Part shown: piece by piece, positions 6,645 to 31,939 of the stretch
Numbering within the stretch: the first letter of the stretch is position 1
How the letters are laid out: each line of letters begins with the position of its first letter
The notes under the pieces: model-generated
What the model saw: the letters and a program-made list of their open reading frames with translations, nothing else
Databases searched by the model: none
What the model was told of the DNA's origin: nothing
From: Methylobacter sp.
GTDB lineage: Bacteria; Pseudomonadota; Gammaproteobacteria; Methylococcales; Methylomonadaceae
Assembly: GCA_030679035.1 (NCBI GenBank)
Contig: JAUXTH010000130.1
Span: forward strand, 1 to 32,201
Direction: 5' to 3'
DNA: 32,201 nucleotides
Program-made: the position numbers and the translations under genes

Positions 6645-7592
6645 TTAGTTGATGTGCTTCTTTAATTCTCTGGGCAAAGAAAACACCACTTTTTCTTCTA
6701 TGCCCTGAATCTCAATAGTCGATTGACCGCCCCATTGCTTTAACTGGTCGATAACTTCCTGAACCAGGACTTCCGGCGCGGAGGCCCCCGCAGTGACACC
6801 GACCACGGCAATGCCGTCAAACCAGTTTTGCTGCATATCGCTCGCGGTATCGATCAGGTAGGCCTGTTTGCCGAGCTGCTCTGCAATTTCGCGCAATCGG
6901 TTGGAGTTGGAGCTGTTGGGTGAGCCGACTACCAGGATAAGATCGGCCGTTTTGGCCAGTTCAAAAACCGCATCCTGGCGATTTTGCGTGGCGTAGCAGA
7001 TGTCGTCTTTTTTCTGTTCCTGTATGGCTTTAAAGCGTGCTCTCAAAGCATCGACCATGATCTTGGTATCGGTCATCGACAAGGTGGTTTGTGTGACATA
7101 AGCCAGATTATCGGGATTTTTTACTACCAGTTTTTTAACGTCTTCCGGGGTTTCTACCAGATAGATGCCGCCATTGTTCGTGCCTCTTTCATATTGTCCC
7201 ATCGTGCCTTCAACTTCCGGGTGCCCGGCATGACCGATCAGAATGACTTCACGATTCTCTTTGGCATGTTTGGCGACCTGTAAATGAACTTTGGTAACCA
7301 GCGGGCAGGTGGCGTCGAAAACCGTTAAATCACGTTCCTTGGCTTCTTGCTGCACTTGCTTGGAAACGCCGTGGGCGCTGAAAATCAGATAAGAGCCGAC
7401 CGGCACGTCGGTTAAGTCTTCAATGAAAATAGCGCCCTTTTCTTTAAGTCCGTCAACAACAGTACGGTTGTGAACAACCTCGTGACGGACGTAAATGGGT
7501 GCGCCGAAAGCCTGGATGGCTTGGTCAACAATTTCAATAGCCCGGTCGACGCCGGCACAGAATCCACGGGGGTTGGCGAGTACAATTTGCAT
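6645..7592 (-). CDS. ispH: 4-hydroxy-3-methylbut-2-enyl diphosphate reductase
   Basis: The last enzyme of the MEP isoprenoid pathway, reducing HMBPP to IPP and DMAPP with a 4Fe-4S cluster. The three cluster cysteines are present: C12 ([11 protein letters not shown]), C96 ([12 protein letters not shown]) and C199 ([10 protein letters not shown]). Substrate-site H41, H74, H124, E126 and the SSNSNRL motif (228-233) are also visible. Its 315 residues are typical. It is read from the minus strand and follows rraA by 35 bases, so the two may share a transcript. Confidence 0.96.
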
Positions 7593-10887: not shown

Positions 10888-10979
10888 GATACTCGGAGTC
10901 TCGTACCGATGGAGTGTGCGCAGGATTCATTTCCATGCATGGAACGCTTATTCGTTATATACATGCTTGCCTCAGAGCC

Positions 10980-11172
10980 GTCATTCCGGCAGGGATTGCC
11001 GGAATCCAGATCACAGGGATGTGAACGATTGAGTTAACAGAGAATCCCCTGTAACAAAGTTTATTCCTGATGTTGTGTTGCCATCCATGGCTTCTCGGCA
11101 ACTGCTCCTGCGTTGCTCTACCTCCTGCATCCATACAAGTCGTGGATCCCGGCAATCCCTGCCGGGATGACG
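10980..11172. repeat. REP-like palindromes in inverted pair plus 26-bp repeat copy B
   Basis: Palindrome ATTCCGGCA-GGGAT-TGCCGGAAT (10983-11005) and its inverse-orientation relative (11146-11168, arms ATCCCGGCA/TGCCGGGAT) face each other about 140 bases apart. Between them is the exact reverse complement (11105-11130) of the repeat at 192-217. This cluster fills the 10888-11244 gap; no gene is seen there. Confidence 0.8.
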
Positions 11173-17204: not shown

Positions 17205-17540
17205 TCTTTATCGCTCCGATGGTGGGTTGTTTCAAAAAATACTGTCAATAAGCACATAGCGCTTTTGTGTGCGCGAGGATCTCTGCGCCAACTCAGGCAA
17301 ACAGGCTGTTTATTTGTTAATTCACGTCAAGCATATTGTAAATCATAAAGGGCGGTATTGATGCCGGTAAAAACAGATTCACAAAACAATGATGCAAATA
17401 GCCAAGGGCTAAACATAGACGTCATAAAGGATTCGGTGTCTTTCAGAAAAAGGATTTAACTCGCAGAGCCATTAATGGCAGCTGCCTGTTGTTTGAGCGG
17501 CTGAATAATTACAATCTGCGACATTCTGACACGCGGCAAT

Positions 17541-17568
17541 TTGCCACATTCCATCATCTAGGTATTTT
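17541..17568 (+). promoter_or_regulatory. Promoter-like element in repeat copy 1
   Basis: TTGCCA, a 16-bp spacer and TATTTT, unchanged in the second copy (30058-30085). It would start RNA near 17575, about 92 bases before the terminator end. Confidence 0.4.
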
Positions 17569-17574
17569 TACTAA

Positions 17575-17666
17575 TATATATGCAACTCTTGAGATGCAAA
17601 CTTCCTCCTAGGAATTCAGAGTTTTATATCCTTCTCTAATGCGGCCTAATCAGCCGCATTTTTTTT
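17575..17666 (+). ncRNA. Candidate small RNA, copy 1
   Basis: A roughly 92-nt segment between a promoter-like element and a textbook intrinsic terminator (AATGCGGC-7 nt-GCCGCATT then T8, 17638-17666). A middle hairpin TTCC(T)/(A)GGAA at about 17602-17614 is kept in the second copy although the closing and loop bases differ. There is no reading frame of note. Its strand matches the oxidase operon, but the terminator would cut it off from that operon. The RNA's existence, exact ends and targets are inferred. Confidence 0.45.
17638..17666 (+). terminator. Intrinsic terminator in repeat copy 1
   Basis: A perfect 8-bp stem AATGCGGC/GCCGCATT with loop CTAATCA, followed by an eight-T run. The identical structure recurs at 30155-30183. 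Confidence 0.85.
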
Positions 17667-17860
17667 GCCTACAGGGCAGTGATTGCTCCCGGCAATCATT
17701 CTGCATTCACTCCATAACCCACAGGGATGTGGGGAATGCAGATATTGCAGGAGCAAATATCTGTCCATGGAGATCAGATGTAGGCAAGGGGCGTGAGCCG
17801 GGAGCGGAAGCTTTGCCTATAGGGTTTGATGCCAGAGTCTGCCCGCTAGTTCTCCCTAAA

Positions 17861-17903
17861 TCAGGTATTAACCTGAGTCCGAATCAGGGTTTCACCCGAT
17901 TTT
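17861..17903 (+). promoter_or_regulatory. Putative operator upstream of the oxidase operon
   Basis: Contains CAGGGTTTCACCCGATTTT (17885-17903) with the palindromic core GGGT-TTC-ACCC. The same 19 bases, 18 identical, lie upstream of the giant oxidase gene in the same orientation relative to transcription (29918-29936, minus strand). Just before it is a second inverted repeat, TCAGGT-ATTA-ACCTGA (17861-17876). The motif end is 233 bases before the ATG at 18137. Binding by the local LuxR-type regulator is a guess from proximity. Confidence 0.55.
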
Positions 17904-17996
17904 ATTTGCTTTACCTTTTCGATACATTTAGTCGCAACGGAGTAAACCCTTAGACTGGTTGTCGATGTAGTTCGTCTCTCGTCAAAGGGATGTTAA

Positions 17997-18140
17997 ATGG
18001 CTGGCACTCATGCCAAAAATCCAGATGTATTTCCAGTCGGGGAATGGACTCAAGTACTAGCCCGATGTGTCTTGATGTTGTTGTCGATATCAACACACAT
18101 CGGTCTTTGGTTCTTTGAAAAAATGAGGTACTTCAAATGA
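17997..18140 (+). CDS. Possible 47-residue leader peptide or small membrane protein
   Basis: A frame from ATG 17997 with GGGA about 8 bases upstream, ending in an ATGA overlap with the next gene (TGA at 18138-18140). The peptide begins MAGTHAKNPDVFPVGEWTQ, has a hydrophobic stretch with a cysteine (LARCVLMLLSISTHIGLWFF) and a basic end. The exact stop-start overlap suggests translational coupling. Against it: a strong hairpin (18062-18103) lies inside the frame. I do not recognise the peptide. Confidence 0.35.
   Translation: MAGTHAKNPDVFPVGEWTQVLARCVLMLLSISTHIGLWFFEKMRYFK
18062..18103 (+). promoter_or_regulatory. Leader stem-loop before the oxidase operon
   Basis: CCGATGTGT-C-TTGAT pairs with ATCAA-C-ACACATCGG (14 base pairs with one C/C mismatch, 12-nt loop). 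It is followed by the moderately T-rich TCTTTGGTTCTTTG and by the GAGGT ribosome-binding site at 18125-18129. Its place, 33 bases before the start codon, suits an attenuator or mRNA-stability element; the weak U-tract makes it an imperfect terminator. Confidence 0.5.
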
Positions 18141-20416
18141 AAACCAAACATACATTAGCTGCGATAGCACTTACAGCGTTGAGTCTATCCGTACATGCCG
18201 ACCTGGCACGGGTCGGGCCGACTAACTTACCTTCACCGGCGGGGCACGGTTTTCCGAACTGGTATCAGGATTTGAACGGAACCGTCCTCGATTTATGCTT
18301 GCCTAATGCCAGCGATACCGGCGCCGCGCAACAGAATGCTTGTTTGCTGGTCGGGCCCGGCTTGCCCGATCCGCCTTACAGCTTCCCAACCAACTTCCCC
18401 GACGAGGCTTTTTACTTTAATGCTTCATCCTTGATAGATATGCCCGGCGGCAAGCGCGCGACCCTGGTTCTGGCGCTGGAAGCGGCTTTCTCTGTAGGGG
18501 CTGTGGCTGTAGGCGATCAAATAACATTTACGCGCATCCGCTTATTTGCGGGCGTGCCGGAACCGGGCACTTACACCGTGACGCACCCTTACGGCGTCGA
18601 GACATTTCCGGTTGATGCGGTTTCTGCCACCGGCAACCGCGATATCGTGTTCAGCGAAGACGTCGGCGTGGCGCGCGGCGTGTTTGACGGCGCGCTCCAT
18701 AGCCGTGTCGGCCCCTTCCTGCAACGTTCCGCCAGCAGCGGCGGGGCTCCACTCGCACCGGTCACCCTTAATGGCGCTCAATTCCTGTCGGACGGAGTTG
18801 CTACGGAATTCGTTACCGGCAGTCCCTTCGGTACCAACTACCTTGAGATCTGCGGCGAAACAGCCGCCGGCGCTCCCATTTTACTCGGAACCCAAGGGGC
18901 CAACGGTACCTGTATTCGCTCCGAGCAATTCAGCCTGATGGGGCGTCTGCACAATTTTGTGGCAAGCCCGATCCCCAGTCCGCTGGAGATCTACAACGGC
19001 TTCTACAAACGCGATGCTGCCGGCACGCAGGTTGATGTGTATGCCAGAGACATTAAGGTGCTGGCCTCACAGCCTAATCCTTCGTTGACGGCGGCTGCAA
19101 CAAACATAGCGCCTGTCAAGATGATCCCGTTCGGCCCCGCCGCGCTCGGGCAGTACTATACCCAGGGCATGGTGGATCCCAGCGGCGATTTGCCAGGCCC
19201 CATATCGGTCATCAACAGCGCCGACACCCCGCCCAGCCTGTTCACCAAGCACGTGGTCGATATCGTGACCGCGGCTTCGGCGAATTACGCCAACCAGACG
19301 CTGACCGTCGTTGCGACAAGCAGCGATAAGGGGGGCTTCGGGGTCGACCAACTACCGCCTATATTGACGCTGGAGGGCTACGGCGACACAGCCGTGTCAA
19401 CCAATAACGCCAACGATCCGGCTGAAGTGACCCTAAAGGTGGCCGGTGTCGTCACTCCGCCGGATACCGTTACCGTGAAATCGACTGCCGGCGGCAGCGG
19501 GACATTCACCGTGGCACGCAATCAGGTAACAGGGGCCGGTGCGCCCGGAGCTGGCGTACCGCTTGCCCTGGATGACGGCGCAGTCGCAGAAGCGGGAGGT
19601 TTGGCCGTCGATATTCCGGTTACCGCTAACGATGTCGCTAACCCGGCGGCTCTGATCACCTCTGTGCAATTGGTCGGACAGGCGATTCCGGCGGGTTCCG
19701 GCTCGGCATCCGTTAATGGCGTTGCCATCACGTACACGCCGGGTTCTGTGAACGGCGATGTGACTTTCCAATATACGGCATCCAACAGCGTCGGACAGTC
19801 CAATGTGGCGACAGTGATCGTCACGGTCGCGCCGTCCGCAGCAGGGGCTGCACCGATTGTTAACCCCGATGGGCCGGTCAATGTGGCCGTCAGCCAGTCG
19901 GTAGTGATCGATGTGCTGGCCAACGACTCTGGCAACGGAGCTGCGCTGAATCCGGCGTCGGTATTGGTATCCAACGTCACCGGCGGCACGGCAACGCCTG
20001 ATGCGACCGGCAAGGTGACTTTCGCGGCTGGCGCCACGGCGGGCACTTTCGGCTTCGACTACACCGTAGCCAATGACAATGGTCAGATTTCGCCGCTTGC
20101 GCATGCCACGGTAACGGTCGTTAATGCTGAAGTTATCCAGATAACCAGTACGCAGTGCAAACCCATCAATGCCACTTCGGGCGAATGGCGGGTCGCTGGA
20201 ACCAGCACAGTGCAAACCAACAACAATATCCAGTTGTACCTGACAGCCTCTGTGCCGGCCGACCTGAATACCAATAAACTGGGCGCGGCAGCTCCAGTCG
20301 TCGCCGGTGCGTGGGACTTCAGGGCAAAACCAGGACCTGCCTGCAAGACGCCGATCAGCTTGCGGTCATCAGCGACGGGCGCCACTAGGGCAAATATCGC
20401 CATTACCATAAAGTAA
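18137..20416 (+). CDS. Exported protein with two Ig/cadherin-like domains, oxidase-operon first gene
   Basis: A 759-residue secreted protein with a Sec signal (residues 1-21, cut after SVHA). The N-terminal region (22-460) opens with GFPNWYQDLNGTVLDLC and has no function I can name. Two VCBS/cadherin-like repeats follow at about 475-566 and 574-663 (each with a TAND/LANDS signature), then a C-terminal domain (665-759) with a cysteine pair (C674, C736). Six mature cysteines could form three disulfides. It lies 84 bases before the multicopper oxidase in one operon, so a scaffold or surface anchor for the oxidase is plausible but not shown. Confidence 0.8.
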   Translation: MKTKHTLAAIALTALSLSVHADLARVGPTNLPSPAGHGFPNWYQDLNGTVLDLCLPNASDTGAAQQNACLLVGPGLPDPPYSFPTNFPDEAFYFNASSLIDMPGGKRATLVLALEAAFSVGAVAVGDQITFTRIRLFAGVPEPGTYTVTHPYGVETFPVDAVSATGNRDIVFSEDVGVARGVFDGALHSRVGPFLQRSASSGGAPLAPVTLNGAQFLSDGVATEFVTGSPFGTNYLEICGETAAGAPILLGTQGANGTCIRSEQFSLMGRLHNFVASPIPSPLEIYNGFYKRDAAGTQVDVYARDIKVLASQPNPSLTAAATNIAPVKMIPFGPAALGQYYTQGMVDPSGDLPGPISVINSADTPPSLFTKHVVDIVTAASANYANQTLTVVATSSDKGGFGVDQLPPILTLEGYGDTAVSTNNANDPAEVTLKVAGVVTPPDTVTVKSTAGGSGTFTVARNQVTGAGAPGAGVPLALDDGAVAEAGGLAVDIPVTANDVANPAALITSVQLVGQAIPAGSGSASVNGVAITYTPGSVNGDVTFQYTASNSVGQSNVATVIVTVAPSAAGAAPIVNPDGPVNVAVSQSVVIDVLANDSGNGAALNPASVLVSNVTGGTATPDATGKVTFAAGATAGTFGFDYTVANDNGQISPLAHATVTVVNAEVIQITSTQCKPINATSGEWRVAGTSTVQTNNNIQLYLTASVPADLNTNKLGAAAPVVAGAWDFRAKPGPACKTPISLRSSATGATRANIAITIK

Positions 20417-20443
20417 ACGCAGAGAAAGCGTTGGAAAACAACA

Positions 20444-20467
20444 CACCGGTTCCGCAAGGAACCGGTG
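20444..20467 (+). promoter_or_regulatory. Intercistronic hairpin with GCAA tetraloop
   Basis: CACCGGTTCC-GCAA-GGAACCGGTG is a perfect 10-bp stem capped by a GNRA tetraloop, 33 bases before the oxidase start. There is no U-run after it, so it is more likely an mRNA-processing or stability element that sets different levels of the two proteins than a full terminator. Confidence 0.6.
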
Positions 20468-20500
20468 CTTCTCTAAACCCTCTAAAAACAGAGGTGTGCC

Positions 20501-22429
20501 ATGTTTAAGAAAATAATCAAGGTGACTAATTTCAGCCAACGCGAGAAAACCATAACCCGTTATATGCAGGAAGTTAACGACATTCAAAAGGCCGGCATCA
20601 CCCGGCGCGAATTGTTCAAAATGGGTTTGACCGCCGGTGTTGGCGGCTTGACCGCGATTGGCGGTCGTAACTTTCTGCCCAATCTTGCTGAAGCGGCGAA
20701 TACTGGTTTGATCAGCCCGCCCTGCAACAAGCCCTGGACGGAGCCGCTGCCGATTCCGAAGTCGTGCCAGTCTGTCGGATCGAATGTCGGTCCTACGCCG
20801 GAAGAAGGCAAATGCGGCGAAAAACAGACGCTTTGGAATCCGGGCGCAAATGCTTTCGACGATTTCGTGGAAGCGCGCGACGAGAAACATCAGCGTTGGA
20901 GCGAGCTGGGCGGCTTGGATGCCTGCACGAAATATGAGCTGATGGTCAGGGAAATTGACTGGAATTTTTATTCGGCCGAGGAATATCCCGCCTTTAACTC
21001 CAAGGTCTGGACCTATGTCGATATGAACTCGGATGCCGTCGGCGTGCTGCGTATCAATGCCCAGTACGGTGCGCCGGTCCTCATGCGCATGTATAACGGC
21101 TTGCCCAAGGATAGTAAGGACAACCAAGGGTTTGGCATCAACCAATGCACTCCGCACCTGCATAACGCCCATAACCCGCCGGAATCCGATGGCGGGCCGA
21201 CCCGGTTCTACGACTCCGGCAAGTGGTGGGACTACTGGTATCCCAATGTTCGGGCAGGCTTTGCCAGCACGCACAAGAACGGAACTTGGTACAACGGATC
21301 ATGGTGTCCGGGCGACTGGCAGGAAACCCAAAGCACGCTGTGGTTCCACGACCACCGTTTCGACTTCACCGCGGCCAATGTCTATAAAGGCATGGCCTCG
21401 TTCTATACGCTGTTCAGCAACGATATTAACCTCGATACCGGTGATGAAACGACCGGCCTCAGGTTGCCCAGCGGTGAATACGATGTCCCGCTGCTATTCA
21501 CCGACAAGGTGTTCGACCAAAGCGGACAGATGTTCTTCGACACCTTCAACCTGGAAGGCATCGTCGGCGATCAGCAAACGGTCAATTTCAAGATCAAGCC
21601 CGTTATGGATGTCAAGCGGCGTAAATACCGTTTCCGCTTCCTGGATGCCGGGCCTTCGCGGTTTATCGAATTGTCTATGAGTAACGGCGCCAAGTTCACG
21701 CGCATCGCCAATTGCGGCAATCTGCTGCCTAAGGCGCAAGTCGTCTCCAGTGTACGGTTGGGGGTGGCCGAAAGGGCGGATGTGATCATCGATTTCAGCC
21801 AATACGCGCCAGGCACGGTAATTTACCTGGAAAACCGGCTGGAGCAGCTCACCGGCAAGGGCACCACGGGCAAGATTCTGCCTTCCAGCAGCAAGACCCA
21901 ATTGCTCAAGTTCGTCGTATCCGGCGATCCGGTTGCAGATGACAGTGCATCGTTGAGCACGCTCCAGTCCCAGGTCATGGTGCCCATGCCTGCTCGGACC
22001 AATCCGGTCAAGGTTCAGCGCCGGTTCAAATTTGATTCCAGCAATGGTGCCTGGACGGTCAATGGTCAGTTATTCGACCCCTCCAGAATCAGTGCCTATC
22101 CGGCAGAGGGGTCGGCGGAACAATGGACGCTGGAGTCGGGGGGCGGCTGGTCGCATCCGGTGCATACTCATCACGAGGAATTTCAACTGCTCACCCGCAA
22201 CGGCAAAGCCGAGAACCTGGCGATTGATGATAAGTCCCGAAAGGACGTGGTGCGGATTGGCGATGGGGCCGTTGGGACGTCGGGAACGGGGTCGGTCAGC
22301 TACTACATGCAATACCGCGACTGGTATGGGGACTATCCATTGCACTGCCACAATGTCGTGCATGAAGACCACGCCATGATGATCCGCTTTCGCATCGTGC
22401 CGCCCGATGACTCGAAAGCCGGCAAGTAA
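20501..22429 (+). CDS. Tat-exported CotA-like multicopper oxidase
   Basis: A 642-residue three-domain multicopper oxidase with all four copper motifs: HLH (219-221), FHDH (283-285), HPVHTH (552-557) and HCHNVVHEDHAM (615-626) with methionine as the type 1 axial ligand. WFHDHRFDFTAANVYKGM resembles the CotA/bilirubin oxidase branch. The signal is twin-arginine (TRRELFKMG, R35-R36), so it is exported folded with copper, but the n-region is unusually long; the GAGGTG site before 20501 supports this start, and M22 is an alternative. It probably oxidises metals (Mn, Cu, Fe) or phenols. The next gene encodes a copper chaperone. Confidence 0.9.
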   Translation: MFKKIIKVTNFSQREKTITRYMQEVNDIQKAGITRRELFKMGLTAGVGGLTAIGGRNFLPNLAEAANTGLISPPCNKPWTEPLPIPKSCQSVGSNVGPTPEEGKCGEKQTLWNPGANAFDDFVEARDEKHQRWSELGGLDACTKYELMVREIDWNFYSAEEYPAFNSKVWTYVDMNSDAVGVLRINAQYGAPVLMRMYNGLPKDSKDNQGFGINQCTPHLHNAHNPPESDGGPTRFYDSGKWWDYWYPNVRAGFASTHKNGTWYNGSWCPGDWQETQSTLWFHDHRFDFTAANVYKGMASFYTLFSNDINLDTGDETTGLRLPSGEYDVPLLFTDKVFDQSGQMFFDTFNLEGIVGDQQTVNFKIKPVMDVKRRKYRFRFLDAGPSRFIELSMSNGAKFTRIANCGNLLPKAQVVSSVRLGVAERADVIIDFSQYAPGTVIYLENRLEQLTGKGTTGKILPSSSKTQLLKFVVSGDPVADDSASLSTLQSQVMVPMPARTNPVKVQRRFKFDSSNGAWTVNGQLFDPSRISAYPAEGSAEQWTLESGGGWSHPVHTHHEEFQLLTRNGKAENLAIDDKSRKDVVRIGDGAVGTSGTGSVSYYMQYRDWYGDYPLHCHNVVHEDHAMMIRFRIVPPDDSKAGK

Positions 22430-22451
22430 TCAATCGAACGAGGATACAGAC

Positions 22452-23111
22452 ATGAACAAAAGAGAGTTTATCAAAAGTGCAACCGCTGCTTCTCTTGGAG
22501 CAGTGGTATTGGGTGCAATGCCCTCCATATCAACTGCCGGGGAGCGTTCCCAATCAATCAAGTCGAGCAGCCGGGACGAGCGCCGCAAAAAATCCTTCCC
22601 GAATGTCCCGTTGATAACGCATGAGGGCGAGACAGTGCGGTTCTATGATGACCTGATCAAAGACAAGACCGTGCTCATCAATTTTATGTATGCGCGTTGC
22701 GCCGATATTTGCCCCGGCATGACGGCGAATCTGAAGCTGGTGCAGAAAGAGCTGGGTGAGCGGATGGGGCGCGACATATTTATGTATTCGATCACGCTTG
22801 AGCCGGAATACGACACGCCGGCGGCGCTGAAAGCTTATGCCGATCTCTTTAGAGTCAGGCCGGGCTGGAGGTTTCTGACAGGCAAAAAAAGTGACATTGA
22901 GCTGCTGCGCAGGCAACTGGGTTTTACTTTCTCGGATCCGGTGCTGGATCAGGACAAGACGCAGCATATCGGCGTCGTCAAATACGGCATCGAGCCCTTG
23001 GAGCGGTGGGGAACATGTCCCGCCTTGGGCAATCCCAAATACATCGCCGAATATATTTACTGGATGGAACCTAGTGGGCAGAGACCGAAGTTGTCTGAAA
23101 TGATGGGCTGA
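22452..23111 (+). CDS. SCO1/SenC-family copper chaperone
   Basis: A 219-residue thioredoxin-fold protein with the SCO copper site: C83 and C87 in RCADICPGM, and H172 in TQHIGVV. The N-terminus KREFIKSATAASLGAVVL looks like a Tat-type signal with KR in place of RR, or an uncleaved anchor. SCO proteins deliver copper or reduce cysteines during maturation of Cu centres, classically cytochrome oxidase CuA; here the neighbour is a multicopper oxidase, 22 bases upstream. The ATG at 22452 has GAGG before it. Confidence 0.9.
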   Translation: MNKREFIKSATAASLGAVVLGAMPSISTAGERSQSIKSSSRDERRKKSFPNVPLITHEGETVRFYDDLIKDKTVLINFMYARCADICPGMTANLKLVQKELGERMGRDIFMYSITLEPEYDTPAALKAYADLFRVRPGWRFLTGKKSDIELLRRQLGFTFSDPVLDQDKTQHIGVVKYGIEPLERWGTCPALGNPKYIAEYIYWMEPSGQRPKLSEMMG

Positions 23112-23147
23112 AATCCGCAATAACAGAGAAGACGTCGGCTTAGCGCC

Positions 23148-23309
23148 ATGGATAAAGCGCCGGATCAAATGTTGGCGGAAAAAGATCCCGTCGCTACCGG
23201 GCTTTTTAACCGATACAGGAAACTGCCGATGCCGAACCTCAGACTGACCGACGTTGATGTAGAAGCCCTGCTTAACTATATGGAAGTCGGTGCATTCCCT
23301 CCACGCTGA
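23148..23309 (+). pseudogene. Cytochrome c domain remnant (C-terminal part only)
   Basis: A 53-codon frame, in the same frame as the SCO gene and 36 bases past its stop. DQMLAEKDPVATGLF, then YRKLPMPNLRLTDVDVEALL, match the C-terminal half of class I cytochrome c, including the Met ligand in MPNL. No CXXCH heme motif exists upstream, so it cannot bind heme as such. From memory, similar segments end cytochrome domains linked to SCO proteins; this looks like the survivor of a deletion. A weak start with no good ribosome-binding site supports decay. Confidence 0.5.
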
Positions 23310-23375
23310 TTAAACTATTGATGTCGGTAAATAGACAGCTGTAAGTGCAATATCTGATGGGTAGGGCGCTATTTG

Positions 23376-23412
23376 GACTGGCCTGGAATACTTCCGGGCC
23401 AGTCTTTTTTTT
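23376..23412 (+). terminator. Intrinsic terminator of the oxidase operon
   Basis: GACTGGCC/GGCCAGTC, an 8-bp stem with a 13-nt loop, followed by eight Ts. It ends the plus-strand unit that starts near 18137. The following 23413-23733 stretch is AT-rich with no gene and would hold the response-regulator promoter. Confidence 0.9.
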
Positions 23413-23733
23413 GTCTGAACAAAGCCGGCAAATAGTCCAGTTATCGTACCCTCATTTTTGCGAGAACTAGTATTGATACTTATATATTTATCAATCTATT
23501 AAAGCTACCATCAGACGCGAAAGGCAAGTGTAGTCATGGGTTGCGCAGTCGGAACCTGATTGTATTTTGATGTAGGCATATTATAGTGTGCACGCCTTAA
23601 ATAACCCTTAATTATAAAAACGGGTCATCTGCCTGAGGTAGTTTTGATCGACCAGAACTTGTGTCGAAAAAAGCGTGAAGAGCTCTCAGGCTGTTTAAGA
23701 AAACATTCAGCGAGGCTATGTGGGGGATTAATT

Positions 23734-24459
23734 ATGTACAAAATTGCGATAATCGAGAGCGAATCCATTATCAGGGAAGGGCTGTGTGCCTTATTATCTA
23801 AAGAGTCCGATTTTACTGTCGATTTTCAAGCTTCAGCCCCCGCGGCGCTTTTTCGTCAGGCTTGGATTAGCCCGCCCAACCTGATCTTATTGGACATGAT
23901 GATGCCAAAAAACTATGGCATAGACGTCATAAAAGAAATAAAAAGGCGATGGCAAGCGACCAAGATACTGATTTTTACCCTTAAGGATACCGAAGAGAAT
24001 ATTTGCGATGCATTCCGTGCCGGTGCCGATGGTTATATACTCAAAGGCACGACACTGCCTCAATTAATTGAGGCGATGAAAAATATTTTGGCAGGTCAGT
24101 ATTATGTTTGTCCCGACATCTTGCCCCAGATTATCAATAGCTATCTTAAGCTTGAAAACACGCCCCAAGAGAATAATTCAAACTGGAATTTGACCGGCAG
24201 GGAGTCGCAGCTGCTGAAACTGATTGCCGCAGGCTACAAGAATAAAGAAATCGCCGATAGCCTTTGCATCAGCGTCAAGACTGTAGAGACCCATCGTGCC
24301 ACGTTAATGAAAAAATTTAATGCACATAATGTGGCTACATTGTTGTCGGTTGCGAAACAGGCAAGCGTTAATCCCTGCCGGCTTTGCAAGACCTTTGTTG
24401 TTGATACTTCCAGCAACTTCTTGGTCAGAAACCATGGCTTAAGTCAGGAAAGGGGGTAA
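23734..24459 (+). CDS. NarL/LuxR-type response regulator
   Basis: A 241-residue regulator. The receiver domain (1-120) has phosphoacceptor D54 (LILLDMMMP) and K104 (YILKGT); the LuxR helix-turn-helix (about 152-208) reads LTGRESQLLKLIAAGYKNKEIA and VKTVETHR. A 33-residue tail carries CRLC (215-218), unusual for this family and possibly metal or redox responsive. GGGGGA ahead of ATG 23734 fixes the start. No kinase is near. Its position between the two oxidase units makes it the prime candidate to bind their shared upstream motif. Confidence 0.88.
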   Translation: MYKIAIIESESIIREGLCALLSKESDFTVDFQASAPAALFRQAWISPPNLILLDMMMPKNYGIDVIKEIKRRWQATKILIFTLKDTEENICDAFRAGADGYILKGTTLPQLIEAMKNILAGQYYVCPDILPQIINSYLKLENTPQENNSNWNLTGRESQLLKLIAAGYKNKEIADSLCISVKTVETHRATLMKKFNAHNVATLLSVAKQASVNPCRLCKTFVVDTSSNFLVRNHGLSQERG

Positions 24460-24566
24460 TCGTTCACTGGAACAAGCAGGGTTTCCGAGTATCAGCAGAC
24501 TTAGTGAAGCCCGGAACTTCATATCATGAACCCCTGATTAAAAAATAATGCATTATTGACCGGCTT

Positions 24567-27500
24567 TTATTGTCCCACCCGGAATATCCCCCACAGGCCA
24601 TTGTCGAACTGGAACGATGCCTGATCCCGGTACAGATAATCGCCCGGCGTGCCGTAATAGCCGCCCGCTCCGTTGGTCAGCAGCAGATTAAGATGGCTGC
24701 CTGGGCCGATGCCCGCTTCGGAACCCTTCCATTCAGACCAGTTATTCTTAGCCATCACCGTTGATCCTTTAATGTAAGGTTCTTCTTGCCAACCGTGACC
24801 ATGTAGCTGGAATACATGATTGCGTGCATGACCGCCAGGCTGCAAAACACGCAGACGGACGCTATCGCCGACTCTGGATTTGAATATCGGGGTTTCCGCA
24901 TCGCCTTTAAGTGCATTGCTGAAGTCTTGGCTGCGGGTTAGCTCCAGTGCTGTTGCCGGAGCAAAGCCCATTCGCGTCCACAGCGGCTCAGTCTTGTAGT
25001 TGAAGGCTTTTTGTCCCGAATCTTCGGGGTCTTCAGACTGGGCAGTGTTTGGCACAGGCATTCCATGCTGCTGTAAATTCAGGTCGTCCTGGAATATCAG
25101 CACATGCTCCCTGAACTTGCTCGACCCATCAGCCAGCGTAACCGTTGCCGAGGCGCGCGAATCGAAGTCTTCGACCCAGCTCGACCCCAATGGTTCGATG
25201 ATCATTGCGGCGATGGCTCCTTTGCCGGTTTGCTTGATGCGATCAGACGGCATCAGGTTGATTGCGCCGTATTCCACCGGTTCGGCAAAAAGGCGCTCTG
25301 GGTTCGACTTGGCGGTAGGATCTGTTTTAACCGTCATCCTGCCTGCATACCATTTATAGCTGACCGTTTTGCCGGGAGCTGCGATTATTGAATCGCCTTT
25401 CCATAAAGTCCAATTTGAACCCACACTCAGGCCGCCGCCGGTCAGCGCATCAAACTCCAGCAGTTGCGGGGTCAGGCCTACATAGCTGGAAGGCAGTATG
25501 TCATTATTGTTGAAGCTTTCGATAATCATCGGCAGCGTGTTATAGCCGTCAGCTTGGGTGCCGTTTAGATCTGCCGGAAGGTGATTGACCAAATCCAGCT
25601 TGATACAGTCCCCGGCTTTGGCGCGAAGAATCAAAGGCTCAATCGGAACCCCCGGTTTCAGCCGGTTTGTTGCCGGATTTAAATCCTGGTCGCGGACATA
25701 CAGCATAGCGCCTGGGTCTTCGAGACCGGCACTGTAGTTATAAACCAGCGGCCCGCCCAGCACATCCTGAGCCATGAAAGCATGAACCGTGAAGCTAACC
25801 TTGGGCGCATTGGTCGGGCAGACGCCGTTCATGCCTGCGCAATTCGGATTGGCTGATTTACCTCCGGCACAGGTCATCGGGGGCAACGCCGTCCCATTCG
25901 GATTGCTCGATAATTTCGCCAAGGTCGGTGCCGGGTATTGATTGGAGAAGTTTCCTTTGCCGTTATAAGTCCGCATGATTCCCCACAGGCCGTTCCAAAC
26001 GTCGTCTGTCGCTGTACCGGGGAAATAGGCCAGATCGGCCCACGGCGTTCCCGGCTTGACCGCGTCTACTGCCGGAATCTCGAACTCGAAGTGCTCGGAA
26101 ATGCCCAGCATCTGCGAGTTCTTGTAGCCGGAGTCTTTCAGGGACGGCTCGAACAGCCATTTAGCACCGTGTGCGCTGAAGTTATGACCCTCTTCATGAG
26201 CCCCCATCAGAATCCTGATCTGAACCTTATCACCGGAATACGCTTTCAATAATGGGGTAAACGGATCGCCGGGCATCACGTTTTTGGTCAGCGGCCAGGA
26301 AAAAAAACTGGGTTGGCTATTCAGCGAGGTGATGGCGCGGTCTGTCCGCGATTCGAAGGCGAACGAAAGATCGCCCGGCTTGCCGGTTGTCTGCCCGTTT
26401 ATTCCGTTATATATCCGCTGGGCTATCGGTTCGTTCCGATAGTTGACGGTCATGGTGCCGGGATCTTCGGCGGAAATCGCTTCAGGACAAGGCCTTGCTC
26501 CACCGCCCGGACAGGTCGGCGCGACAGCCAGCAAATTATGCAGGCCGTCTTCCATTTTCCCCGGCGGGTTCACCGGCGTGCCGTCAGGCCGGTAGGCAAG
26601 CGAGAAATCGCCCATTTCCAGCATAAACTCGCGGTAAGGTTTTTCACCATTGCCGGGTTCGATGATGGCCTGCCAGCTGGTCGGGCCGCCGTCGCTTCTA
26701 CCGCCCAGAACTGCGCCGGTTTCATTATGCTTCCAGATTGAGCCTACCGGCTCGACAACCAAACCGGCATAAAGCCCCGGATGTTGATGGGTTGACGGCC
26801 CGAAGTGATCGTGGGTGAACACCGTGCGTAGCGTCCGGTCTTCGCCGACGTTGTTGACTACATCGTCGGCAAACCAGCGCTGCACCGTGGTTTGTACACA
26901 GGTTCCATTGCCTTTTTCAAATCCGGACAAGGTACATACGCTCGGTTTAGCGACATTGGCGTTATCGGAATCCAACCATTGGCCTGCGGTGGTGTTCAGC
27001 GCAACCTGACGTTCGTGGATTTCCTCGGGGCTGAAGGTGCCGTCTTCATAATTCCAGCCGTTGCCGGAACCGTCGGACGAGGTCACATCGAACTTAACCA
27101 GATGGATATGCTGGCCGATAATGTCGGTCGGCGTGGTAACCTGGAAATCATCCTTTTTGTAAACATTGGGCACCAGATTGGTGTGCTCGAAGGTAATGCA
27201 CTCGCCGCTGTTGGCTCTAAAAAACATCGGTTCAGGAGGCCTGATGCCATCTATCGTATTAGCCACATCGTCCCACAAGGTCAGAATGCGCTGCTGGGGG
27301 AAATGCCAGCCTGCCTTGTTCATTTTGACATCCAGCTGGATAGCCGCAGCATGGTAAAAGCGATTGTTGCCGGTAACGGGCTGCTGGGCATCGTTAATGC
27401 ACGGGTCGGCATAGGGCGCACCGGCAACGGCAGGCAGGCCGTTGACCTTAAATGAACCGGTGCCGCCATCCGGTTTAGGCGTGATGTAATGATTCGCCCC

Positions 27501-29777
27501 AGCTGTCATGCCGTCGCCGCCATGAAAAAGCATCGCCTGTCTTTCCCACGGCGTCCCGGTCTCCGGTAGCTCCTTTGCGGCCAGGGTGTCGAGTATTTTG
27601 TTGAAATTATCCCGTTCCTGATAGCTGGTTGCGCTGCCGCCGGTGACCACATGCCGGGGCAATCCGCCATCGACTACGATGTCCAGCGGCGGATGCGGCG
27701 GACGGTGTCCGGCAATGCCCGGAATAAAAAACGGATAGCCGGGGTTGCCCGTTGCCACTTCGGGCAATTTGACCTGTCCGGTCGGCGCACCCGCTTTGTA
27801 TTCAATCTCCGCCTTGGCACCGGGCAGCGGTGCCATCGCCATCGTCGGCATGGGCACCAATGCCGGTATCGGCGTTCCTGCCTTGATTTCATAATCCGGC
27901 AATGCCCTGGAGCCTTGCGCCGGTCTGCCGTCTTTGGCCAATACGGTGCCAATCTCCAGCACGTCATGAACCCGCCACAATTCCCACATGCCCTGGGCAA
28001 AATGAGTGTAAAAATGGCAATGGAATATCGAATCGCCGACCGTCCGGTTACGGTTGCCGCTGCCGTGATGGGCGATTTCATAGGTATAGCCGCTGCCAGG
28101 GCCGATGCTCTGGCTGTCCAAATAGGCGGAACTGTCATTATCCGGGCTATGCAGCCATTGGTGGGCGTGCAGGTGGAAGATGTGATGCTCCTTGGGGCCT
28201 GCGTGCAGATTCCTGAACTTCACCCGGTCATTGATATAGCTGTGGTGAACATTGGACGGATCGTCAGGAAAGTAGGCTTTGGTCGCGAACTTGGGTTTTT
28301 CAACTACGCCCAGCCCATTGGCATTAACGCCTGCCGGTATATCGACCACCATCGCCGGATCGCCCAGCACCCAGGAGGTTAAAAAGAATTCTTCATATTT
28401 GCACTCGACGCAGTCTTTCATCGGGCCGAGCTTTAGCCGGTTGGCGATAATTTCCGAACCGATGCCGCCGGAACCGTAATTGATCGCGAAACCGTCCCTG
28501 ACGCCGTGCAAGGTGTGGATGAAGGCCGGGTCGTTATACCAAGCGGGGAATGCCTGCACCGCTTTGATCTCGTCATGGAAAATCACGGTAAATTCGCGGA
28601 ACGGGTCGGTTCGGTCGGGATAGGTTGCATTATTGGGTTCCTGTTGGCTGTCAAATGCCCCTAAGCCGTTTCCGGTGATGATCGCATTAATGTCGGAATG
28701 GGCGATTTTGCCGTTATCCAGCATATTCAGTATCGGCGTTCCGGCAAGAGGGTGTGGGACAGTGCCTTCGATCTTCCAGGTGTAGGGTGGTAGGTCACTG
28801 TTAAAGGCTTCCGTTATCGTCACCTTGGCCGAGCCATCGGTAAAAACGTTGTCAATATGTGCCTTGCCTGTTACGCCGGCTAAGGTTTTACCGACATCGT
28901 CAGCAATAAAGCCGACATTGCTGGTCAGAGTGGTCATGGTTGCCTTAATGCTGCCGTCCTGATATGTGGATAAGCTGAGTTGCTCGGGCGGTTTGCGGGT
29001 TTCAACAGCGGGATACACGGCGTCGTAATTGATGACTGGGTAATATTTCCCATCCGACAGGGTAGTATCCGTTGCGGCTAAAGCTAAATCCTGTTCGGTC
29101 ACCTGGCTGCGATACCATTGGGATCTCTTGTCTTCAACATTGACCGCACCGAACAAACCATGCGCCAACGATCCGCCATTGCCTTCACCGCCTGTCGACG
29201 CTGCTGTACTGTAGGCAAAATAGGTGCCTTCTTTTTGCGCGTAAAAAGTGTAGCTTTTGGTATCACCCGGGCTTGCCAGGCTGTTGGTATTATTAGCTAC
29301 GTTAGAGCCATCCGATTCGATGCCTTTCGCCTGCATGCCGATCACATGGAATGATGCGGTGCGTGTGCCTGGGCCATCGCCATTTTTAGTCGCAGTCGCG
29401 TTGGGATTGGGGCTGCTGGGGGCGACAGGGCTTAGCAACGAGCCAGCAAGGTTCGGACTTAGCCAGTTGGTGAAGTTGACGGTCAAACAATCGCCTTCGT
29501 TAACACGCAGCACCAGGGGTCTGGGCCGCTTGTCGGGTCGCAACATCGCATTGCCAGGGGAGGGAGACGAACCCTTTATCGCAACCACATCGCGTTTTAA
29601 CGCATAAATCATTCCCGAAGGATTCATCGCGCCGAGGCGGTTGTAATAGAGAACTTGGTCTAGAGCCACTACATCGGCGCTTATGCATGCCTGAGCCGGA
29701 TGGCTTGCCGCGAACGTCAGTAGTAGAAAACACGACTTGGCTATTGATCCGCTTTGAATGTTGGGTTGTGAGTTCAT
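24567..29777 (-). CDS. Giant secreted multicopper oxidase, MofA/MnxG-like size class
   Basis: A 1736-residue exported protein (signal 1-30, cut at AQA/C31) made of several cupredoxin domains. Complete copper motifs occur in the order HxxHxH (532-537), HCHFYTHFAQGM (586-597, Met axial ligand), HIH (890-892) and HDH (989-991), not the usual HxH, HxH, HxxHxH, HCH. A degenerate site near the C-terminus (HVFQLHGH, 1654-1661) has Q1657 where histidine is expected and lacks HCH. Size and multidomain layout recall MofA and MnxG, the Mn(II) oxidases of Leptothrix, Pseudomonas and Bacillus; Mn oxidation is inference. A strong AGGAGGGG site precedes the ATG. Confidence 0.88.
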   Translation of the reverse strand: MNSQPNIQSGSIAKSCFLLLTFAASHPAQACISADVVALDQVLYYNRLGAMNPSGMIYALKRDVVAIKGSSPSPGNAMLRPDKRPRPLVLRVNEGDCLTVNFTNWLSPNLAGSLLSPVAPSSPNPNATATKNGDGPGTRTASFHVIGMQAKGIESDGSNVANNTNSLASPGDTKSYTFYAQKEGTYFAYSTAASTGGEGNGGSLAHGLFGAVNVEDKRSQWYRSQVTEQDLALAATDTTLSDGKYYPVINYDAVYPAVETRKPPEQLSLSTYQDGSIKATMTTLTSNVGFIADDVGKTLAGVTGKAHIDNVFTDGSAKVTITEAFNSDLPPYTWKIEGTVPHPLAGTPILNMLDNGKIAHSDINAIITGNGLGAFDSQQEPNNATYPDRTDPFREFTVIFHDEIKAVQAFPAWYNDPAFIHTLHGVRDGFAINYGSGGIGSEIIANRLKLGPMKDCVECKYEEFFLTSWVLGDPAMVVDIPAGVNANGLGVVEKPKFATKAYFPDDPSNVHHSYINDRVKFRNLHAGPKEHHIFHLHAHQWLHSPDNDSSAYLDSQSIGPGSGYTYEIAHHGSGNRNRTVGDSIFHCHFYTHFAQGMWELWRVHDVLEIGTVLAKDGRPAQGSRALPDYEIKAGTPIPALVPMPTMAMAPLPGAKAEIEYKAGAPTGQVKLPEVATGNPGYPFFIPGIAGHRPPHPPLDIVVDGGLPRHVVTGGSATSYQERDNFNKILDTLAAKELPETGTPWERQAMLFHGGDGMTAGANHYITPKPDGGTGSFKVNGLPAVAGAPYADPCINDAQQPVTGNNRFYHAAAIQLDVKMNKAGWHFPQQRILTLWDDVANTIDGIRPPEPMFFRANSGECITFEHTNLVPNVYKKDDFQVTTPTDIIGQHIHLVKFDVTSSDGSGNGWNYEDGTFSPEEIHERQVALNTTAGQWLDSDNANVAKPSVCTLSGFEKGNGTCVQTTVQRWFADDVVNNVGEDRTLRTVFTHDHFGPSTHQHPGLYAGLVVEPVGSIWKHNETGAVLGGRSDGGPTSWQAIIEPGNGEKPYREFMLEMGDFSLAYRPDGTPVNPPGKMEDGLHNLLAVAPTCPGGGARPCPEAISAEDPGTMTVNYRNEPIAQRIYNGINGQTTGKPGDLSFAFESRTDRAITSLNSQPSFFSWPLTKNVMPGDPFTPLLKAYSGDKVQIRILMGAHEEGHNFSAHGAKWLFEPSLKDSGYKNSQMLGISEHFEFEIPAVDAVKPGTPWADLAYFPGTATDDVWNGLWGIMRTYNGKGNFSNQYPAPTLAKLSSNPNGTALPPMTCAGGKSANPNCAGMNGVCPTNAPKVSFTVHAFMAQDVLGGPLVYNYSAGLEDPGAMLYVRDQDLNPATNRLKPGVPIEPLILRAKAGDCIKLDLVNHLPADLNGTQADGYNTLPMIIESFNNNDILPSSYVGLTPQLLEFDALTGGGLSVGSNWTLWKGDSIIAAPGKTVSYKWYAGRMTVKTDPTAKSNPERLFAEPVEYGAINLMPSDRIKQTGKGAIAAMIIEPLGSSWVEDFDSRASATVTLADGSSKFREHVLIFQDDLNLQQHGMPVPNTAQSEDPEDSGQKAFNYKTEPLWTRMGFAPATALELTRSQDFSNALKGDAETPIFKSRVGDSVRLRVLQPGGHARNHVFQLHGHGWQEEPYIKGSTVMAKNNWSEWKGSEAGIGPGSHLNLLLTNGAGGYYGTPGDYLYRDQASFQFDNGLWGIFRVGQ

Positions 29778-29799
29778 GGTTTCCCCTCCTGATCGGTTT

Positions 29800-29825
29800 A
29801 AGCAAGTTACGGCGGCTTCTTGCTT
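29800..29825 (-). promoter_or_regulatory. Leader hairpin of the giant oxidase gene
   Basis: AAGCAAG/CTTGCTT, a perfect 7-bp stem with a 12-nt loop, lies 22 bases before the start codon on the transcribed side. It may influence ribosome access or mRNA stability, parallel to the leader stem-loop of the other oxidase operon. Confidence 0.4.
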
Positions 29826-29917
29826 GGATCATGCGTTGCTTAAATGTTCCCGCTTAGCATTATGAAAAAATGTATTTTTAGGATAGGAATCGACAATACA
29901 ACTTCGGAAGACAATTA

Positions 29918-29936
29918 AAAATCGGGTAAAACCCTG
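29918..29936 (-). promoter_or_regulatory. Putative operator upstream of the giant oxidase
   Basis: On the minus strand it reads CAGGGTTTTACCCGATTTT, differing by one base from the site at 17885-17903, and has the same orientation relative to the oxidase gene. The 3' edge lies 140 bases before the ATG. I saw no third copy in the window by eye. Confidence 0.55.
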
Positions 29937-30091
29937 AAATATTGCAAAAATTATTTCTATGTCGCCAATGGTGCCGAGATGATTTTTAGCTCGAATAAGG
30001 CGCTTGATTCGTTAGGTTAAACAACCATAACTCTGCGACATTCTGACACGCGGCAATTTGCCACATTCCATCATCTAGGTATTTTTACTAA

Positions 30092-30183
30092 GATATATGC
30101 AACTCTTGAGATGCAAATTTCCTCCTTGGAATTCAGAGTTTTATATCCTTCTCTAATGCGGCCTAATCAGCCGCATTTTTTTT
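30092..30183 (+). ncRNA. Candidate small RNA, copy 2
   Basis: The second copy of the 17575-17666 element, with an identical promoter-like box (30058-30085) and identical terminator (30155-30183). Only a few bases differ in the body, with the mid hairpin preserved. Here it is transcribed divergently from the giant oxidase gene. Existence as RNA is inferred. Confidence 0.45.
30155..30183 (+). terminator. Intrinsic terminator in repeat copy 2
   Basis: AATGCGGC/GCCGCATT stem, CTAATCA loop and T-run, identical to 17638-17666. Confidence 0.85.
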
Positions 30184-30377
30184 GCCTACAGGGATGTAGG
30201 CAAGGGGCGTGAGCAGGAGCGGAAGCTTTGCCTACAGGGCAGTGATTGCTCCCGGCAATCATTTCTGCATTCCCTCCATAACCCACAGGGATGTGGGGAA
30301 TGCAGATATTGCAGGAGCAAATATCTGTCCATGGAGGTCAGATGTAGGCAAGGGGCGTGAGCTTTGTCTACCTAAAT

Positions 30378-31439
30378 TTAGGCAAGGGGAGGGAAGCGCT
30401 GCCTGAAATAAAGCGCCGCCTTGACCAAGCCGATCAGTACCGGAACTTCTACCAACGGGCCGATGACGGCGGCAAACGCTTGCCCGGATTGCAGACCGAA
30501 AACCGCTACGGCCACTGCTATGGCCAGCTCAAAATTATTGCCGGCAGCGGTAAACGACAGTGTGGCGCTGATGCGATACCCGGCCCCGGCCTTGGCCGAC
30601 ATATAAAACGTGACCAGGAACATAACCAGAAAGTAGATGACCAGCGGTACGGCGATGCGTGCCACATCCAGCGGCAGCTGCACAATGGTTTCGCCCTTGA
30701 GCGAAAACATGACCAGGATCGTGAACAGCAGCGCAATCAGAGTGATGGGGCTGATTTTAGGAATGAAGGTTTCGTCATACCACTGCAAGCCCTTGCGCCG
30801 CACCAGAAAAAAGCGCGTGAACATGCCGCCGAAAAACGGAATGCCTAGGTAAATCATCACACTCTTGGCGACTTGAAGCATGGTAACCTGAACTTCAAGG
30901 CCGGAAGCCACACCTAACCAGTCGGGCAGGACGGTGACGAAAACATAGGCATAAACGGAAAAGAACAGCATCTGGAAGATGGAATTGAACGCTACTAGGC
31001 CAGCGCAATATTCGCTATCGCCGTCGGCCAACTCGTTCCAGACCAGAACCATCGCTATACAACGCGCCAGTCCGATGATAATCAGGCCCACCATATATTC
31101 AGGGTAATCCCGAAGAAAGATCACAGCCAGCGCGAACATCAGCACCGGGCCGATCACCCAGTTCTGGATTAGGGACAGCAGCAGGATCTTGGTGTTCTTG
31201 AAGACCTTGGGCAGTTCTTCGTAACGCACCTTGGCCAGCGGCGGGTACATCATCAGGATCAGGCCGATGGCGATAGGCATAGACGTGGTGCCTACCTGGA
31301 AGCGGTTTAGCCACTGGGTGAAACTGGGGACAAAATAGCCCAGAGCGACCCCGGCTGCCATCGCTGTAAATATCCATAACGTCAGGAACCGCTCTACAAA
31401 ACCCAAGCGCTTTGGTGCGTGATCAACTTGTTTATTCAT
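30378..31439 (-). CDS. acr3: ACR3-family arsenite efflux permease
   Basis: A 353-residue polytopic membrane protein (about ten helices) of the ACR3 family, which exports arsenite using the proton gradient. Signatures: [21 protein letters not shown] (51-71), [16 protein letters not shown] (123-138) with the conserved arsenite-site cysteine C127, and [12 protein letters not shown]. The ATG at 31439 follows arsC by 20 bases; the frame's upstream TTG is less likely. The C-terminus runs into the edge of the palindromic repeats, where the stop lies. It forms an ars unit with arsC. Confidence 0.93.
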
Positions 31440-31459
31440 GGTTGTCGTTTCCCGATGTC

Positions 31460-31939
31460 TCAAAGAGTTTTTGCGCCGATCTTGTTCAGCGCCTCAGCCA
31501 ATTCCGTTCCGGACATTGTGTCAACCGGCAACGCCAACATCTGCTGTATCCGTTTTTCCAGGGCCGCGTAGGTTGCCTCAAAAGCCGCTTCAATAACTTC
31601 CGGGCTGCCGGTGACATGGGCCGGATCGGGCAAGCCCCAATGCGCCCGGATCGCGCCCGTAAGATAAACAGGACACACTTCCCCGGCAGCGTTATCGCAA
31701 ACGGTAATCGCAATATCGATGCCTTTGTCGTCAAATTCATCCCAGGATTGGCTGGTAAATCCTTCGGTCGGGATGCCGTGGCGGGCTAAGGTCGCCAGCG
31801 CATTGGGGTTGACCTTGCCGGTCGGATGACTGCCGGCTGAGAAAGCCTGAAACCGGCCTCCGCCCAGATGATTAATCAGCGCCTCACCCAAAATGCTTCG
31901 GCAAGAATTCCCGGTGCACAAGATCAGAACGTTTAACAT
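31460..31939 (-). CDS. arsC: Arsenate reductase, low-molecular-weight phosphatase type
   Basis: A 159-residue LMW-PTP-fold ArsC that reduces arsenate to arsenite for export by Acr3. The phosphate loop CTGNSCRS (C8, R14) is at the N-terminus and a second redox pair is at C81/C89 ([12 protein letters not shown]), as in thioredoxin-coupled enzymes. HWGLPDPAH supplies the general-acid aspartate. AGGAG precedes the ATG. It is the first gene of the ars unit, directly behind the operator. Confidence 0.93.

Follow-up and report, generated by a model that had tools for sequence, protein, structure and literature searches.

Probable small-RNA genes in tandem arrays appear to border slots of exchangeable gene cargo in Methylobacter

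The copper-oxidase block and its bracketing repeats

The window considered here, a stretch of 32,201 nucleotides, is the entire contig C165 of a Methylobacter genome of 4.79 Mb in 216 contigs. Its central part carries a block of five genes, four of which lie on the forward strand. These encode an exported Ig-like (Big_9) protein of 759 aa (18137-20416), a multicopper oxidase of the CotA/bilirubin-oxidase type of 642 aa (20501-22429), an SCO1/SenC-like protein of 234 aa (22407-23111) and a LuxR-type response regulator of 271 aa whose start codon is uncertain (23644-24459). All were assigned with Pfam, the oxidase also with PDB sequences, and their DNA is 95.8%, 94.8%, 95.9% and 88.2% identical, respectively, to that of the isolate Methylobacter tundripaludum SV96. 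The fifth gene, on the reverse strand (24567-29777), is absent from SV96 and encodes a giant oxidase of 1736 aa. By sequence it is related to the manganese oxidase MnxG (PDB 9bxa, E 8.9e-105), yet its 1365.9 bits on the NCBIfam MnxG model are far below the cut-off of 3100, which leaves it outside the curated family. On the left, the block lies beside fbp. On the right, it is followed on the reverse strand by acr3 (30378-31463; NCBIfam TIGR00832, 460.1 bits against a cut-off of 282.8) and an arsC-like gene of the phosphatase family (31460-31939; Pfam LMWPc), which have the same neighbours in relatives.

A preliminary description of this DNA had assigned every gene of the block to copper-oxidase biology or its control. 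Of these genes, those for the Ig-like protein and the regulator are linked to that theme by position only. The description had also stated that the block lacks an integrase or transposase and, in effect, Pfam found neither among the five genes. Among the matches listed in searches of the literature on manganese oxidation in methanotrophs and on small-RNA hotspots, nothing on the block or the locus was found.

The block is bracketed by direct repeats made of two matching stretches, 17515-17676 with 30032-30193 (162 nt) and 17699-17798 with 30263-30362 (100 nt). Both stretches are 98% identical and in the same orientation, as originally described, and they are 12,517 bp apart when measured from start to start; the sequence enclosed by the copies amounts to the 12.2 kb reported earlier. 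The right copy contains about 47 extra bases between its halves, the copies measuring 284 nt on the left and 331 nt on the right.

The repeats are composite. Their first half is a probable small-RNA gene and their second half a dispersed repeat (forward strand, 17677-17798 on the left and 30193-30362 on the right, the latter with the roughly 47 extra bases at its start), of which many partial copies occur elsewhere in the same genome. With the 284-nt repeat as the query, 25 matches are obtained in this genome, and only three of them span most of the first half, namely the two sites in the window and the end of contig C114. Occurrence of the repeat at dozens of sites with no link to the block had been named earlier as an outcome that would refute the idea of a module; it is approached by the second half only. 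In addition, the dispersed repeat directly follows the T run of the terminator described below at both window sites and at the end of C114, and does so in the relatives G012, G009 and G015 too. Short dispersed-looking repeats also form inverted pairs outside the block (185-229 with 11093-11137, and 10979-11008 with 11143-11172). tRNA and tmRNA genes serve as integration sites; a scan of the window found no tRNA, and integration of the tRNA type was rejected for this reason.

A small-RNA gene in the first half of the repeats

It is very probable that the bracketing repeats contain a small-RNA gene, and the features of their first half, as read from aligned copies, are the anatomy of such a gene. 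On the left, the promoter region (17515-17582, forward strand) was delimited by an alignment of 38 copies and an operator scan, and holds two RegA-like inverted repeats (about 17518-17532 and about 17533-17547) and a TAATAT box. It is followed by a predicted RNA of 84 nt (17583-17666, forward strand) that ends in an intrinsic terminator (stem 17638-17660), as supported by the alignment, a fold z of -3.23, pair counts, a model match of 111.8 bits and a terminator scan. On the right, also on the forward strand, the same alignment and operator scan place a promoter region with two RegA-like inverted repeats at 30032-30099, and alignment, folds, pair counts, model match and terminator scan place the 84-nt RNA at 30100-30183 (terminator stem 30155-30177).

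The alignment took in only copies with a BLAST match of at least 90 nt. Common to all 38 is a TAATAT or TAAGAT box, followed about 5 nt further on by a constant RNA start, CAACTCTTG. After this start come a variable hairpin with a loop of the CCUCC (anti-Shine-Dalgarno) type, a pyrimidine-rich linker, a G+C hairpin and a T run. The conserved non-coding stretch is, then, enclosed by a promoter and an intrinsic terminator of its own, the promoter being recognized by its conservation; promoter-like matches in the terminator/promoter scan are no commoner than in shuffles. A sigma-54 promoter driven by the adjacent NtrC was also considered and rejected, as no GG-N10-GC element was seen by eye in the aligned upstream region. 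No Rfam family reaches its gathering threshold in the window.

The structure of the RNA was read off the folds and evaluated on an alignment of 57 distinct copies. In this alignment, 93.9% of the cells pair, compared with 25.5-48.5% when the partners are slid, and two-sided changes are found at 8 of the 19 pairs, compared with 2.7 in shuffles, none of the 500 shuffles reaching the observed count. The covariation supports the inner hairpin and the terminator (helices 2 and 3); the outer stem is without any two-sided change in the 57 copies, and RNAalifold, run on an earlier, first alignment, predicted the terminator hairpin (helix 3) only. In all five copies tried, folds were more stable than those of shuffles, with z from -2.9 to -5.9.

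Two roles tied to the neighbouring oxidase were rejected. Binding of the RNA to the giant oxidase through its Shine-Dalgarno sequence gave a null result, with 39 of 200 shuffled RNAs binding equally well and the gene ranking 7th of the 34 tried. Likewise, the RNA is not part of the oxidase system, because G023 and G040, which have relatives of the giant oxidase, show no RNA match in the 19-kb stretches around them (L094 and L099).

A putative operator and its regulator

Upstream of the RNA start, copies carry a putative operator, an inverted repeat near GCGAC-N5-GTCRC. In 70 of the 73 copies scored, which are related and not independent, the best site is at -65/-64 or -50/-49 of the RNA start, and it has 8-10 of 10 matches, also in 70 of 73, with about 0.9 expected from shuffles. 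The scoring covered 73 of 76 model matches, leaving out one whose contig ends 62 nt upstream (L086) and the two weakest (L091 and L155). A GCG inverted repeat at a fixed distance from the start is the arrangement that characterizes sites of the RegA/PrrA type, and the small RNA would consequently be a candidate for control by a regulator of that type.

An exact operator occurs once more in the same genome, between genes for a RegB-like kinase and a RegA-like regulator on one side and an RNA-like unit on the other. The kinase reaches 214.9 bits where its family requires 350, the regulator was named by eye, and the RNA-like unit is a weak model match (E 0.005). As a side observation, two exact operator matches elsewhere in this genome, at G000:C4:19006 (L155, about 7006-7155) and G000:C59:10740 (L153), each have a terminator-like hairpin with a T run within about 150 nt, one of them beside RegB/RegA-like genes. 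It is possible, judging from these features, that both sites mark further RNA genes under the same control.

Distribution of the RNA gene

With a covariance model, the RNA is detected at E up to 1e-4 in 80 of 121 family genomes, representing 24 of 29 genera; matches at E 1e-9 or better occur in 38 of the 121 genomes, and many of the weak ones near 1e-4 may be due to chance. Tandem copies, up to four, are common across the family. DNA of the first half was detected in 24 of 41 genomes searched, namely the window's own genome, 21 of the 22 others of the genus (in G003 and G004 by weak matches), as well as two that belong to the family but not to the genus. A pattern scan of a collection of species genomes returned 40 stretches, all from Methylococcaceae, Methylococcales, Methylobacter, Methylovulum or Crenothrix.

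Outside the genus, the RNA tends to have another left neighbour. Of 20 stretches from 19 genomes of other genera, 16 have it immediately downstream of a pdxA-rsmA pair, next to the rsmA-type gene. In one more stretch a single gene intervenes, and in the other three the RNA is located elsewhere; the names pdxA and rsmA were taken from one genome and carried to the others by clustering. In one such stretch (L246 22-5481, from G085), nine clustered open reading frames of a single family (about 115-215 aa) lie upstream of pdxA-rsmA and the RNA gene. No paper on this small-RNA gene of methanotrophs was found among the matches listed for small or non-coding RNA in methanotrophs and for tandem small RNAs with cargo.

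Filled and empty slots at the array locus

In Methylobacter, the array lies mostly between ntrB-ntrC and either acr3/arsC or a FUN14 gene; the regulator of SV96 scores 730.8 bits on the NtrC model, whose cut-off is 558.6. Tandem copies without cargo are present on one contig in 6 of 23 genomes of the genus (G007, G010, G012, G018, G020 and G022), and cargo lies between copies on one contig in five, which are the window's genome, SV96, G021, G011 and G006. G008 has the copper block in three contig pieces, and in the remaining 11 the copies are single, partial, divided by contig breaks or missing altogether.

The cargo itself differs among these genomes. SV96 has two stacked cargoes, first the copper block, which lacks the giant oxidase there, and then a condensin/Wadjet-like operon, each followed by an RNA gene. 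G021 and G011 carry the condensin-like operon. In these three genomes, the operon shows DUF3584, MksE and DUF7281 in Pfam, and the sole PADLOC matches, in 2 of the 8 proteins scanned, are weak ones to JetC (1.2e-4). The cargo of G006 is an expanded block with extra multicopper oxidases; its slot of about 24 kb (G006:C134:45290-69501, in L070 and L071) contains three further multicopper oxidases and a protein with cadherin/Ig domains. In another genus, the two RNA copies of all four genomes examined are separated by 6.7-10 kb, a space occupied by CheB/CheR-PAS and hybrid-kinase genes, and the genes of their right flank are also found near the array in Methylobacter. It is probable that slots between array members hold exchangeable cargo and that the copper-oxidase block fills one such slot in the window. 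The earlier proposal that the block is exchangeable as a unit is borne out to this extent, for species differ at one locus in having the block, lacking it or having other cargo in its place, its edges lie at the repeats, and no recombinase gene was seen in it.

A different fate befell the proposal that the block was inserted with duplication of its boundary. By this account, one insertion between fbp and acr3 produced the repeats, and it is true that the two copies of the window are 98% identical and bracket the block exactly. Nevertheless, duplication by one insertion was rejected because tandem RNA genes occur without cargo, in the genus as well as in the family. In addition, the left neighbour of the block in G008 and SV96 is ntrC with an RNA gene, and in SV96 a distance of 1.2 Mb separates fbp from the array, so that a single insertion at fbp appears highly improbable. 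Relatives lacking the block had been expected to show one fused repeat copy at a fbp-acr3 junction. Instead, they carry either a single copy or two to three RNA genes, mostly between ntrC and acr3 or FUN14, and the five spacers that were measured are 91-504 nt long. These five empty spacers match only RNA promoters and dispersed repeats and contain no cargo remnant.

Islands could also have been brought in by an integrase that used the RNA gene as its attachment site and was since lost. Non-coding RNA genes such as those for tRNA and tmRNA are integration sites elsewhere (PMC5635113). Still, no integrase was found among the genes of the window's block or the cargo proteins scanned, and arrays free of cargo already consist of two or three complete RNA genes, which makes such an origin very unlikely. 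What is found at this locus is variable content between conserved flanks without mobility genes, as in a recombination hotspot.

The left junction at fbp

Synteny between the window and SV96 stops at 17370, close to the left repeat. The gene that adjoins fbp in three relatives (SV96, G021 and G011) is located within a different contig of the window's genome. Contig C114 of this genome bears the RNA copy that adjoins ntrC and terminates in a dispersed repeat of 78 nt. The true left junction is not reached from the end of C114, as this 78-nt repeat occurs at several contig starts. From the position of fbp in SV96, and from the array lying mostly between ntrC and acr3/FUN14, it follows that fbp is not the ancestral left neighbour of the block.

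The block probably came to lie beside fbp by a rearrangement. An inversion with fbp and the array at its two ends would agree with the orientation in SV96, but its reciprocal junction did not turn up. Alternatively, the junction from fbp to the RNA gene (17371-17514) could be an assembly misjoin, the true left neighbour of the block being another than in the assembly. Such an error is conceivable, as the ntrC-adjacent copy sits on a contig ending in a dispersed repeat and as 17371-17514 matched none of the loci compared from other genomes. However, the left RNA copy is distinct from the one on C114 (81.4% identity, compared with 98.1% to the right copy), the SV96 neighbour of fbp sits within a different contig of this genome, and G006 likewise shows a break of synteny upstream of fbp. 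A misjoin is thus considered unlikely.

Transfer of the block and history of the RNA copies

Between the window and SV96, DNA identity is 94.8-95.9% for the first three block genes and 88.2% for the response regulator, compared with 85.6-87.2% for ntrB, ntrC, acr3 and arsC and 89.0% for the recN locus. Along the sequence, most values between about 18.1 and 23.7 kb are 92-99%, and those of the right flank are 83-88%; the right RNA copy, taken together with the 60 nt before it, is 95.9% identical to SV96, and the 0.3 kb just right of the left RNA copy about 83%. Block genes at 95-96% against flanks at 86-87% and recN at 89% show a recent transfer between species of the block interior and its right end, whose left edge, inside the slot at about 18.1 kb, is not at the RNA gene. 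The block is patchy on a recN tree of 21 of the 23 genomes, many of whose forks are unsupported (G014 and G017, with recN in two pieces, were left out). For instance, the nearest relatives of the window's genome (G012 and G009) and of G008 (G015 and G022) are without the block at the array and without the giant oxidase anywhere, in assemblies that are 81-93% complete.

Twenty-two RNA copies of 10 genomes were compared with each other; genomes with single copies, G007 and the partial third copy of G020 did not enter the comparison. Across genomes, mean identity is 84.6% for copies that occupy the same position and 76.5% for those whose positions differ. Two copies of one genome share 63.5-87.7%, the window's pair, at 98.1%, being the exception, so that its near-identity reflects a recent duplication in the lineage of the window. 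Among right-hand copies that stand next to the same cargo, identity is 93.5-96.1%. It cannot be claimed from this that an RNA copy travels with its cargo, because right-hand copies of genomes without cargo are nearly as close (G012 95.5%, G018 92.2%), and the grouping of copies by cargo may reflect mere position.

Possible mechanisms and related systems

As a whole, the observations seem to be best explained, with somewhat more in favour than against, if the repeats are small-RNA genes of a tandem array whose slots carry exchangeable cargo. The anatomy of the RNA gene, the tandem arrays, the filled and empty slots, the two stacked cargoes and the recent transfer of the block interior are established at the level of DNA sequence. 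The rest of the proposed mechanism would be as follows. Cargo would be gained and lost by ordinary RecA-type recombination, with the RNA genes or the flanking core genes providing the homology and no dedicated recombinase taking part. The RNA would be transcribed and switched by a RegA/PrrA-like redox regulator, and would act on mRNAs through its CCUCC loop. Finally, the recent duplication of the window's RNA copies may be tied to the rearrangement that placed the block beside fbp.

That the crossovers fall at the RNA genes themselves is a tentative suggestion, about evenly poised. The alternative is a permissive spot in which cargo is exchanged via crossovers in flanking core genes (ntrBC and the arsenic genes) and the RNA genes merely happen to lie. 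Hotspots without mobile elements but with frequent recombination at their flanking core genes are known (PMC5635113). In the same direction point the start of the high-identity tract with SV96, inside the slot and not at the RNA gene, and the cargo of G005, a multicopper oxidase and a CopB gene located between ntrC and the RNA gene. By contrast, cargo edges coincide with RNA genes in two genera that differ in their left flanks (ntrC and pdxA-rsmA), and an RNA gene separates the two cargoes of SV96. The alternative is therefore possible but the less expected outcome. As for crossovers at the RNA genes, a more specific form would have a cargo plus one RNA gene as the moving unit, swapped and stacked in a cassette system that is free of a recombinase and in which each cargo adds a dose of the redox-controlled RNA; this form is doubtful.

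Several known systems resemble parts of this locus. Multicopy (sibling) small RNAs also occur as tandem near-copies with an anti-Shine-Dalgarno CCUCC loop and their own promoter and terminator, all of which are found here; the present RNA differs in having no Rfam match and in that cargo separates array members in some species. Integron cassette arrays are stacked cargo units, each beside a conserved non-coding element. This likeness extends to the stacked cargo described above but, unlike in integrons, no integron integrase is seen, and the element has a promoter, a conserved RNA and a terminator. With the integrase-free hotspots of PMC5635113, the locus shares variable cargo, conserved flanks, the lack of a visible mobility gene and signs of recombination. 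It differs from them in that the slot edges are tandem copies of one small-RNA gene, and in that one isolate has two cargoes split by a copy.

The locus would thereby give an integrase-free hotspot an edge that is defined in sequence, and it adds a probable small-RNA gene of methanotrophs that has no Rfam family and carries a testable predicted operator. As an oxidase related to MnxG is found in cargo that is probably exchangeable, methanotrophs may pass metal-oxidase traits from one species to another as a single block. Separately, a gene block near the right side of the array (gene families F15, F09, F10 and neighbours) is reversed relative to the RNA genes in some genomes, namely in G003 (L098) and in genus g37 (L232 and L235) as compared with other Methylobacter.
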